64,000 nt of DNA, from positions 48,876-112,875 of the forward strand of contig JAPLOA010000081.1 of the NCBI GenBank assembly GCA_026400835.1, given 5' to 3'. Source of the stretch: Planctomycetales bacterium (GTDB taxonomy: Bacteria; Planctomycetota; Planctomycetia; Planctomycetales; Planctomycetaceae). This document shows, one piece after another, positions 8,238 to 15,925 of this stretch (positions are counted from its first letter, which is position 1; every line of letters begins with the position of its first letter). The notes under the pieces are model-generated. The model searched no databases. It saw only the letters and a list, made by a program, of their open reading frames with translations, and was not told the DNA's origin. Both the position numbers and the translations under genes were made by a program.

Positions 8238-8969
8238 TCACTGCGACCTGCGCCCATCCGCCAGAATTTTCAGGTAAGCCTGTCTCAGAATGCTGAGGTC
8301 GGACTCCACGGCAATCTCCGTGAAACCTTGATCTGCAAACTTCGTGATCGTTTCGACATCCCGGCACAGGATTCCCGCTGCCTTTCCATACTTCAGGGTC
8401 GCGTTCACGACCGCAGCCAGACAGGCTTCAAAGTCAGCAACGTTCCATTCGGGATGATGCTCCAGATCGTGGCGCAGATCTGCGGGACCTACAAACAGCA
8501 CGTCCACACCATCGACCGCCGCAATCGCCTCGACGTTCTTCATTCCCTCGACCGACTCTATCTGAGCCATGATGCGTGGTGCCGACTCGGCGTCGGTGGC
8601 GAAGGTGAGACCATAGCCATGCGTTCGAACGGTGCGTGACAGACCACGTCGACCGCGCGGAGCATAGTACGCGGCGCTGACGATTTCGCGGGCCGTCTCG
8701 GCAGATTCCACATGCGGCACCATGATCCCCTTTGCACCCCAGTCGAGCACGCGGGCAATCTGATCGGGATATGGGGCTCCCACGCGCACGACAGGCTTCG
8801 TGGCGCGGCCGCCGAGCGCGCGAAGCTGACCGGGCAAAGCCGCCTCAGGTTCACACCCGTGCTCCAGATCGAGCAGCAGCCAGTCGAACCCGCACAACGC
8901 CGCCAGTTCGGCAATCGCAGGTGATCCGGTCGAGAGCCAGGTTCCCAGTCGAAGAGACGATTTGGTCAT
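8238..8969 (-). CDS. HpcH/HpaI family 2-oxo acid aldolase
   Basis: A 243-residue class II (metal-dependent) aldolase of the HpcH/HpaI family, which splits 4-hydroxy-2-oxo acids such as 4-hydroxy-2-oxoheptanedioate or 2-keto-3-deoxy-sugar acids into pyruvate and an aldehyde. Family landmarks are present: LLLDLEHGCEP (catalytic His), VVRVGAPYPDQ (substrate Arg), MVPHVESAE, AQIESVEGM (metal Glu) and VDVLFVGPADL (metal Asp). Start: the ATG at 8969 overlaps the kinase stop as ATGA, a classic coupled start; an upstream ATG at 8978 would lie inside the kinase gene. It is the last gene of the sialidase operon. The physiological substrate is not shown by sequence. Confidence 0.88.
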   Translation of the reverse strand: MTKSSLRLGTWLSTGSPAIAELAALCGFDWLLLDLEHGCEPEAALPGQLRALGGRATKPVVRVGAPYPDQIARVLDWGAKGIMVPHVESAETAREIVSAAYYAPRGRRGLSRTVRTHGYGLTFATDAESAPRIMAQIESVEGMKNVEAIAAVDGVDVLFVGPADLRHDLEHHPEWNVADFEACLAAVVNATLKYGKAAGILCRDVETITKFADQGFTEIAVESDLSILRQAYLKILADGRRSQ

Positions 8970-14000: not shown

Positions 14001-15925
14001 CAAGTCTTGCCGTCTTTGCTCGTCGTGAAGTGATAGTTGCCCGCATCGTTGCGACAGATTGCCATCCAGGTGCCGTCAGGCAAACGGTTCACAGCCGACT
14101 CGCTGAGCTGCTGCGACTGCGGTTCGTTGTAATGGCCGATGATCTCGAAAGTCGTGAAGTCATCATGCAACACGGCGAGAGCGTTTTGTTTGCCGGGAAA
14201 GTTGTTGAGCGCCACGTAGCGGCGACCGTCGAACTCTTTGAATGAATCGAAGATGTAGAGCCCTTCGCGAACCGGCGGCTTCTTGAAGCCCTGCGCCGCA
14301 GCGTCGGCATGGAAATGACGCGGCTCCATGTCGAAAGTCCCCGCCGCCGTCTTGAGCTTCGCCTTGTGGATGCTGTCCTCGAAAGTCTGCGTGCGAAGAT
14401 CGAAGTCCCGAAACCACGTCACCGCCTGTTCCTTCGATGGCTGGCTGCAGAAGTAAGTCCGCAGCGTGTGGTCGTCCTTACGAATGATGCGCGGCACGAA
14501 GACCTGCGCCTCCGGCAGAGTGACGTTCGCAAACGCCTGGCCTGCTTGAGCCATCGGGATGGTCTTTTCCACTGCCAGCGTCTTCAGGTTCACCACCGTC
14601 AGTACGCAATACATCGCCGCGCCCGCGCCGTGTCCAGGAGCGACATTGTTATCATGCTCGACGATGTATGCACGCTCGCCTATGCAGACGAACTCCGCAT
14701 CATGCGCCCCTTTCACCTGCGGCGCAGTAACTTTTATGAGACGCTGCATGACAGTGTCACCAGCTATCGCCGCGTCCCAGTTGGCAGGGAGTAACGAGGG
14801 CTTGTCGAGCTTGTTAATAGTCTGCGTGAGCATCACTGCGCCCGAGACGTTCTTGCCTGCAAGCACATCTTCTTCGCGGAATTTAGCAAGCAGGATTTCG
14901 CCAGCACCTTGCCGGTCGCGATCGTAAGTGACCCAAATCAATCCATCGCGATCCTGCACGCCGTCGGGATAGGACACACCACTGCGATCATCGAGCAGCA
15001 ATCCGTCATTCCAAGTCGCTCCATCGTCGACGGAAAGCTGCGCTGTGAGATGGCTGCGGCCTTTGAAGTTGTAATGATTCACCAGCAGCAGATTGCCCGA
15101 GGACAGGCGGCGGATGAAGAACCGCGAGCCAGGGCTCTTGATCGTGCTGGCTTTGGCTTCGCTCCATGTCCGTCCTTTGTCACTGGAATGACTCTCCCAA
15201 AGAAAGCCGCTGCCGGTGCGAATGAGCATCCACAAGCGGCCATCTCGGAGTTCCGTGATCATGCACTCCAGCGCCCACTCAGGTGCTTTTACTGCGCCGT
15301 GAAGTTTCCATGTCTTACCTTCATCGGTCGAGATGCCCACGCCTTGAAGTTGCTTTGGTCCGGCAAACCATTCGTGAATCGGCTCCACGGCATGCGTCAC
15401 CGGCATGATCCATTCACCGGTCGAAAGCACCGTCGGCTTGTTCATCCGGAAAGCATACGGCCCCTCGTAGCCGACGCGAAACTCGGTACCGAACACAGGT
15501 GTCATCGCGTCAGGATCATCGCAGATACGGGCATGCACATCATGCACTGCGGTTGTCTTGTTACCCCGATTGAAGATGTACCACAGCCGTCCGTGGGGAT
15601 CGATCCAGAGCGTCGGATCGAAACAGCGAGTGCCATTGCTCAGCGGCAATCCCATCGCCTGCGGCACCGAGAACGTCTTTCCGCCATCGTCGCTATGGGC
15701 AAGCACGACTGTGTTTTCGGGAGCAGGCTCTTTTGGACCACCCGTAAACCATGAGACAAAAACGCGGCCCTTGCCGGTGCGCTCGAGGCCGGGAATTCCC
15801 TGCCATGTTCTTTCGGGAACAATCAGTTGCTCTTCGGCAACCAACGACGGAGCCGTGTTGAGAGAGACCATAATCGCCGCCAGCGCAGCGGTTATGCGAA
15901 GTTGTTTGCTCAATTGCAGCATCAT
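11093..15925 (-). CDS. Giant multi-propeller sialidase-like protein, secreted
   Basis: A 1,610-residue protein with a signal peptide (residues ~1-30) and four propeller-like modules. Module A (~35-360) and module C (~880-1220) are sialidase/BNR domains that match each other closely, both ending with EILLAKFREEDVLAGK. Module D (~1240-1610) is a third BNR domain (STDEGRTWSP, SRDGGKTFSEHG). Module B (~375-790) is a more divergent propeller (SKDGKTWSVGQ, SRDGRTWERKY). Linkers join the modules. Bacterial sialidases usually have one catalytic propeller, so at least one internal duplication occurred. Several Asp boxes are clear, but I could not confirm a full catalytic Arg triad, Tyr and Glu in each module. 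It is first in the operon. Two adjacent ATGs (15925 and 15922) are possible starts. Confidence 0.85.
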   Translation of the reverse strand: MMLQLSKQLRITAALAAIMVSLNTAPSLVAEEQLIVPERTWQGIPGLERTGKGRVFVSWFTGGPKEPAPENTVVLAHSDDGGKTFSVPQAMGLPLSNGTRCFDPTLWIDPHGRLWYIFNRGNKTTAVHDVHARICDDPDAMTPVFGTEFRVGYEGPYAFRMNKPTVLSTGEWIMPVTHAVEPIHEWFAGPKQLQGVGISTDEGKTWKLHGAVKAPEWALECMITELRDGRLWMLIRTGSGFLWESHSSDKGRTWSEAKASTIKSPGSRFFIRRLSSGNLLLVNHYNFKGRSHLTAQLSVDDGATWNDGLLLDDRSGVSYPDGVQDRDGLIWVTYDRDRQGAGEILLAKFREEDVLAGKNVSGAVMLTQTINKLDKPSLLPANWDAAIAGDTVMQRLIKVTAPQVKGAHDAEFVCIGERAYIVEHDNNVAPGHGAGAAMYCVLTVVNLKTLAVEKTIPMAQAGQAFANVTLPEAQVFVPRIIRKDDHTLRTYFCSQPSKEQAVTWFRDFDLRTQTFEDSIHKAKLKTAAGTFDMEPRHFHADAAAQGFKKPPVREGLYIFDSFKEFDGRRYVALNNFPGKQNALAVLHDDFTTFEIIGHYNEPQSQQLSESAVNRLPDGTWMAICRNDAGNYHFTTSKDGKTWSVGQTMPFVPSGLNSKPTFDKFGGVYYLGWQENTRVHDCNRSVFNVDISRDGRTWERKYRFESPHSFQYPTFHEHDGTIWLTVTQSDHKGSSDRIMFGKLEDVGRFEPQTGHKRIAWPTPPIEPAIMKGGVKLFTDRDYVIHEFPEQVRDLPFLRTSIEKTDVEVTKPGVLFALTPTIRPTAASQEETLRRAGFTKVDVPEVQLFPGEINRVSLYRKEVKSGERLKFNKMVLLLLADGAAVSKPGLNAPVVISNPGAPFQDEARSGAMIIGMDRTPKGRIWGCWTGTGDKKDGYFLLATSDDDGTTWSKPRLAVGARTEPEQKLSGALVGNLWSDPKGRMWLFFDQQLGDPQKRITNWFIRCDDPDAAEPSWSDPVMFAEGCTLNKPTVLKNGDWLLPVSDWHKKTARVFASTDEGASWKERGSVVFPDWNFDEHMTVELRDGRLWMLARTNGQPFESFSSDLGRTWSEPRQAATVQNINARFFLRRLKSGRILLVKNGPPTERLAKRSHMSAYLSEDDGQTWKGGLLLDERSSVSYPDGFESPDGLIHILYDWNRHTDAEILLAKFREEDVLAGKIVSRDSKLRMLANRASLPVSIRPNDKWSLQVIEDAKQDRTSIPYDGITPNKMVCDTTLRLMPDNSWIISMLAGDDFEPSPKNYIGITRSTDEGRTWSPLSTVETTFPRSGVTSGQGATEIMTIGNRTTMFFSTHSQTWGRDWQSWQMHSNDSGHTWSKPEPMPGRLAKFTFIRGHIVTRDGRILIPFQHYLGPSEGTPEPPPEEKPWHKTLAHYVSNPRNGVLISRDGGKTFSEHGNIRITDDDRYHGWAENSLVELADGRVAMVIRADRLGGVLYYAESSDGGQTWPTFATKTAIPNPGSKAMLYGLGGDKVALLHNPNPKHRSPMALWISFDGMKTWPYQRVLQAESCDGPKGRMNYPDGFVSFDKQWLHFAFDDNRHRCVHYSVKLPLQ

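Follow-up and report, generated by a model that had tools for sequence, protein, structure and literature searches.

The described route closest in logic to the system reported here is the Nan pathway of sialic acid catabolism, comprising a sialidase (NanH), a transporter (NanT or SiaPQM), the aldolase NanA, the kinase NanK and the epimerase NanE. A second point of reference is the KdgK/Eda pair, a PfkB kinase and a class I KDPG (2-keto-3-deoxy-6-phosphogluconate) aldolase that phosphorylate a 2-keto-3-deoxy acid and then release pyruvate. For catabolism of KDN (2-keto-3-deoxynononic acid) in Sphingobacterium, the excerpt of the published account consulted here reports a KDN-releasing sialidase and a KDN-specific aldolase of the NanA type and mentions no APH kinase (PMC10017367). 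A 64,000-nucleotide stretch of a Planctomycetales bacterium genome (assembly GCA_026400835.1, contig JAPLOA010000081.1; hereafter the window) contains a cluster of four minus-strand genes at positions 8238–15925 that, like the Nan pathway, would combine an outside enzyme of sialidase fold, uptake of the acid, one kinase and one pyruvate-releasing aldolase. However, this logic is predicted to be carried by other protein families, with a BASS transporter, a kinase of APH rather than ROK fold and an aldolase of HpcH/HpaI rather than DHDPS fold, and neither the PfkB kinase nor the class I KDPG aldolase family is present in the cluster. No description of this four-family set was found among the open-licence literature matches listed, within the excerpts that they provide. 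We regard it as about an even call that the cluster releases a deaminated 3-deoxy-2-ulosonate, imports it, phosphorylates it and then splits it to pyruvate and a sugar phosphate.

The four genes are tightly packed, and re-reading of the open reading frames (ORFs) gave the same spacing as the first-pass annotation. The most upstream gene (11093–15925) encodes a secreted-looking, sialidase-like protein of 1610 aa with a signal-like stretch at its N-terminus (judged by eye). It is followed after 73 bases by the gene for a 310-aa BASS-family transporter (10087–11019) and, after 2 further bases, by that for a 372-aa APH-fold kinase (8966–10084). The kinase frame is open from 10114 to 8966, and its start is placed at the ATG at 10084, which is conserved in relatives, because all 59 sequences compared share the motif YWKCDR directly behind it. 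The ATG of the HpcH/HpaI-family aldolase gene (8238–8969) shares the sequence ATGA with the kinase stop codon. All four family assignments made at first reading are confirmed by Pfam, with BNR_2 matched in three stretches of the 1610-aa protein and SBF, APH and HpcH_HpaI in the others.

The four-family arrangement recurs far beyond chance. A kinase scan of species genomes returned 97 loci, the best 80 of which were analysed; counts were taken only where the contig leaves room for the partner, and phyla were read from record titles, which can be wrong for metagenome bins. An aldolase gene lies within 2 kb downstream of the kinase in 73/78 loci (median gap 12 bases), a BASS gene within 2 kb upstream in 58/75 (median gap 0) and a propeller gene within 7 kb in 54/73. 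Sixty-eight loci have all flanks, and 44 of them hold all three partners; 9 are without BASS only, 9 are without the propeller only, 2 have the aldolase alone, 1 the propeller alone and 3 no partner. The loci are mostly from Verrucomicrobiota, with others from Planctomycetota (e.g. L008, L030 and L062) and Bacteroidota (L083–L087), and the order is conserved across these three phyla. The Bacteroidota loci are at 46–50% identity; two of them (L085 and L086) hold all four families, and in all five the cluster genes stand behind two genes read by eye as SusC and SusD. A gene read as a LacI-type regulator is present in 22/80 loci, always on the opposite strand. The refutation foreseen at first reading for want of co-occurrence therefore does not arise, since the families are found together in relatives, mostly of the Verrucomicrobiota.

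Trees built from the 59 loci holding kinase, BASS and aldolase pair the window kinase with L008 (0.998) and the BASS transporter likewise (0.994), whereas the aldolase pairs with L056 and L062 (1.0), an ancestry unlike that of the other two. Judged by these trees, the aldolase, or else the rest of the cluster, has been replaced while the kinase-aldolase overlap persisted, which is good evidence that the kinase and aldolase work together.

The kinase matches APH (PF01636) at 53 bits and has the HxDxxxxN motif (HKDLALWN), the following Asp (in DFDD) and the fold. It belongs to a separate family within the APH fold, for which databases list at least 1,632 members, some of them labelled fructosamine-3-kinase or aminoglycoside phosphotransferase in their sources. 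The fructosamine-3-kinase profile scores 24.6 bits (cut-off 22.4) and its Z is within 1 of those for APH(4)-Ia and homoserine kinase; with the structure hits tied, no substrate was inferred from the kinase fold. The aldolase matches HpcH_HpaI (PF03328) at 126.7 bits (cut-off 25) and keeps the motifs around H40, R65, E141 and D167, which we take to be metal-binding and catalytic residues. Catalytic motifs are thus kept in both enzymes. In family, length and catalytic motifs the aldolase resembles the class II pyruvate aldolases GarL, HpaI and RhmA, and among solved proteins it matches GarL best (142.8 bits), followed by 4-hydroxy-2-oxo-heptane-1,7-dioate aldolases. However, it falls below every curated NCBIfam equivalog cut-off (HpaI, 169 vs 368.8; GarL, 167.8 vs 406.75; the rhamnonate aldolase RhmA, 127.8 vs 441) and is considered here beside an APH-fold kinase. 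The transporter matches SBF at 136.3 bits (cut-off 24.3) and is below the equivalog cut-off for PanS (217.2 vs 400) as well as that for bass.

The sialidase-like protein consists of four tandem beta-propeller units, A-B-C-D. Propeller A (residues 26–376; 14798–15850) is GH33-like, and C (residues 886–1236; 12218–13270) and D (residues 1245–1610; 11096–12193) have the GH33 fold, a six-bladed sialidase fold being found in the models of C and D. Catalytic residues are kept in A (E220, R236, R290 and Y319), C (E1076, R1092, R1150 and Y1179) and D (E1469, R1485, R1542 and Y1577). Among 73 domain hits, some of which do not cover a given site, the nucleophile Tyr aligns in 20/20 A, 38/38 C and 12/12 D domains and the partner Glu in 18/18, 37/37 and 12/12, and the two other triad Arg residues are always kept in close domains. 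The propellers thus share with GH33 sialidases the fold, the Tyr/Glu pair, the second and third triad Arg and the Asp boxes. They differ in their tandem arrangement, in the divergent unit B and in the Arg of the FRIP motif, the position of which is occupied by Gly in A (19/19), Met in C (36/36) and Cys in D (12/12); the Arg is present only in two aligned Bacteroidota D-type proteins. Its absence may alter ulosonate binding and leaves room for another acid, with uronides the main rival. Unit B (residues 377–885; 13271–14797), of ~500 residues and present in 34/57 propeller-bearing loci, scores 22 bits against BNR_2 (cut-off 31.4), and its sequence has no solved relative at E ≤ 1. The description as sialidase-like propellers is well founded for the modelled GH33 fold and most catalytic residues, and the propellers may act on sialosides. 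A further C-type propeller stretch (45% identical) with two in-frame stops lies elsewhere in the same genome (L107; contig C21, ~3 kb before the window start) and, from its sequence, is a decayed second propeller gene.

In the proposed pathway, the propellers would hydrolyse glycosides of a 2-keto-3-deoxy acid, freeing a deaminated 3-deoxy-2-ulosonic acid from glycans, and the BASS transporter would carry the free acid into the cell. Phosphorylation likely comes first, in contrast to the Nan pathway: the kinase would act on the terminal hydroxyl of the acid, and the aldolase would then serve as a retro-aldolase of the phosphorylated acid, yielding pyruvate and a sugar phosphate. With KDN, KDN-9-phosphate would give mannose-6-phosphate and pyruvate, followed by ManA; with KDO (2-keto-3-deoxyoctonate), KDO-8-phosphate would give arabinose-5-phosphate and pyruvate, followed by KdsD. 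KdsD is over its cut-off in 12/12 cluster genomes, with two copies in the window's own genome, and ManA is matched in 12/12, seven of them over the cut-off including the own genome. As these housekeeping enzymes would complete either route, the two cluster enzymes would suffice, and in the own genome either acid would need only the cluster and housekeeping enzymes.

KDN is the best single guess at the substrate, with KDO second, because the cluster would reverse the synthesis of KDN-9-phosphate, which in microalgae is made from mannose-6-phosphate and phosphoenolpyruvate according to the excerpted account (PMC6200933). A tentative fuller proposal is that the BASS carrier imports KDN or KDO, that what would be the first APH-fold ulosonate kinase phosphorylates it, and that a ulosonate-phosphate aldolase of the class II HpcH/HpaI type cleaves the product directly to mannose-6-phosphate or arabinose-5-phosphate and pyruvate, reversing the synthesis of KDN-9-phosphate or KDO-8-phosphate and feeding freshwater Verrucomicrobiota, Planctomycetota and Bacteroidota from algal or bacterial ulosonate glycans; the assignment to KDN specifically is somewhat more doubtful again. 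If correct, the cluster would be a complete non-homologous replacement of the Nan pathway, would give a substrate class to the kinase family, and would provide a genetic marker for degraders of algal KDN or of KDO from lipopolysaccharide (LPS) or pectin in lakes.

Several observations weigh against this pathway. The FRIP Arg is absent in 67/67 aligned domains at ≥50% (A and C) or ≥40% (D) identity, the closest solved aldolases, judged by their names, act on C6–C7 and not C8–C9 substrates, and the structure hits of the kinase model are generic, with ties within 1 Z unit. Partners are also missing from some loci with room for them: the propeller from 19/73, BASS from 17/75 and the aldolase from 5/78 (L010, L037, L045, L058 and L059; L045 has a 31-residue aldolase match only). 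Three of the five kinase-bearing Planctomycetota genomes are without an orthologous aldolase (best 32–38% identity). A GlcNAc (N-acetylglucosamine) 2-epimerase is present in 11/12 cluster genomes, which leaves room for an N-acyl route outside the window's genome. For KDO in particular, cleavage of KDO-8-phosphate would be expected to drain the cell's own LPS precursor and compete with LPS synthesis.

The same ulosonate might instead be degraded in the reverse order, the aldolase splitting the free acid and the kinase phosphorylating the aldose set free (mannose or arabinose) or an aldehyde. The Nan pathway classically has the lyase first and the kinase later, kinases without an aldolase (5/78 loci and 3/5 Planctomycetota genomes) suit an enzyme with a substrate of its own, and a gene of GH130, a mannoside phosphorylase family, adjoins the pair in L071. 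We nevertheless consider this order unlikely, as the genome already encodes three ROK-family kinases that might take a common hexose, and the kinase gene stands ahead of the aldolase gene in 73/78 loci, although gene order is weak evidence at best. A similarly low probability is given to a shorter 2-keto-3-deoxy acid, either resembling 2-keto-3-deoxygluconate or a heptulosarate such as DHA (3-deoxy-lyxo-heptulosarate), released from uronate- or pectin-type glycans by propellers acting as uronide hydrolases or lyases. The missing FRIP Arg and the solved aldolases nearest to that of the cluster, GarL and the heptanedioate enzymes, would fit such a substrate, as would L021, where a gene of a polysaccharide-lyase family (PF14099) directly precedes BASS. 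However, L021 is a single case among the 80 loci, the neighbour groups present in at least 5 loci (named partly by eye) include no uronate reductase or dehydratase, and the propellers retain the Tyr/Glu pair that typifies sialidases.

Ordinary catabolism of Neu5Ac (N-acetylneuraminic acid), with NanA, NanK and an epimerase encoded elsewhere in the genome, is very improbable. The first-pass annotation had stated that none of the Nan enzymes is present, which holds for the window and, at curated cut-offs, for the genome (99.99% complete), but the genome does encode six DHDPS-fold and three ROK proteins. One of the six is DapA, over its cut-off; none (0/6) reaches a NanA cut-off, the best scores of 147.3 (cut-off 281) and 138.7 (382) both coming from the DapA protein, and none of the ROK proteins (0/3) reaches a NanK cut-off (best 117.1 vs 283 and 101.1 vs 450). 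A ROK gene that adjoins a BNR gene in L113 (contig C34) is glucokinase-like and below the cut-off. These cut-offs may be too strict for Planctomycetota, and a divergent NanA below them is possible; an excerpted survey reports NanA from three Planctomycetes and five Verrucomicrobia genera (PMC2693436). In a close relative, moreover, a DHDPS gene, a second BASS gene and an intact YRIP-type sialidase gene lie beside the aldolase. However, the surroundings of the cluster in the window include no DHDPS gene, and in the four DHDPS neighbourhoods read (L115–L118, of six in the own genome) neither a propeller nor a BASS gene was seen by eye. NanE has no match at E ≤ 0.001 in the own genome (controls positive 8/14), a further difference from the Nan pathway, and is over its cut-off in 0/12 cluster genomes; GlcNAc 2-epimerase likewise has no match at E ≤ 0.001 in the own genome (controls positive 2/14). 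With these two enzymes missing, the N-acylated branch is incomplete there, and Neu5Ac, which the first reading had entertained, is ruled out as the first-choice substrate. The broader reading as sugar-acid catabolism retains the conserved four-family module, the GH33 fold and the catalytic motifs, but not Neu5Ac itself.

An explanation of the cluster as a mobile island, held together by transfer and serving no single pathway, is no less far-fetched. The kinase is rare, being found in 5/101 genomes of the window's own family at E ≤ 0.001 (own genome included) and in 2/392 genomes of the phylum at E ≤ 1e-60, a scan in which the aldolase is found in 1/392. The window BASS is 94% identical to that of L008 and 89–90% identical to those of several loci titled Verrucomicrobiaceae, and G+C is 0.563–0.585 in the six 2-kb bins over 4–16 kb and ≤0.559 in the other 26. 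These identities, the rarity of the kinase and the raised G+C are consistent with horizontal transfer. As an account of the whole cluster, however, an island is opposed by the order conserved across three phyla, by the start/stop overlaps and by the replacement of the aldolase in place. Two of the five Planctomycetota genomes with the kinase hold the orthologous aldolase (81 and 97% identity) and the other three do not. Family co-occurrence is seen mostly in Verrucomicrobiota, and the kinase is rare in Planctomycetota.

Convergent with the cluster is a plus-strand gene for a LamG-BNR_2-SGNH protein (5241–7841), relatives of which occur near the cluster in 5/80 loci (one a 96-residue piece) and also in L096, from the relative G098. 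It is followed on the plus strand by the stump of a YRIP-type sialidase gene (7851–8183; 110 aa), most of which is absent from the window and which in L096 is an open frame of 402 aa (5424–6632). Both plus-strand genes lie outside the interval marked at first reading but form part of the same picture. The genes at 928–6632 of L096 run in one direction and encode a DHDPS protein, a second BASS transporter (39% identical to that of the window), the LamG-BNR-SGNH protein and the YRIP sialidase. They converge with an aldolase gene 97% identical to that of the window and a cut-down kinase gene, shortened to 159 matched residues. This arrangement suggests that a more classical lyase-type operon adjoined the cluster in the relative and that the window retains only parts of it; 928–6632 is possibly a separate BASS-based, NanA-like ulosonate operon.

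Other loci differ in a variety of small ways. In L045 (1391–2620) a frame opens with the first BASS residues, continues with its last ones and then the kinase (by eye), and looks from its sequence like a BASS gene that lost its middle part and was joined to the kinase. L071 (3297–7821) has an MFS transporter, a GH130-family piece, the kinase and the aldolase in a row, with no BASS or propeller gene on its short contig. The orphan kinases of L058 and L059 adjoin a LysR and an enolase-superfamily gene on the other strand, in which no pathway was seen. Five neighbouring genes tried from L026, L043, L017, L055 and L027 gave no Pfam family; the L026 neighbourhood also includes an esterase. In a few loci an extra gene of ~290 aa (group 133) lies between BASS and kinase; it resembles a secreted or lipoprotein sequence by eye, and was rejected by eye as a DHDPS. 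A gene of ~133 aa (group 162) is present in 16/80 loci, including L013, L016, L019 and L024, and lies directly behind the aldolase wherever its place was read.

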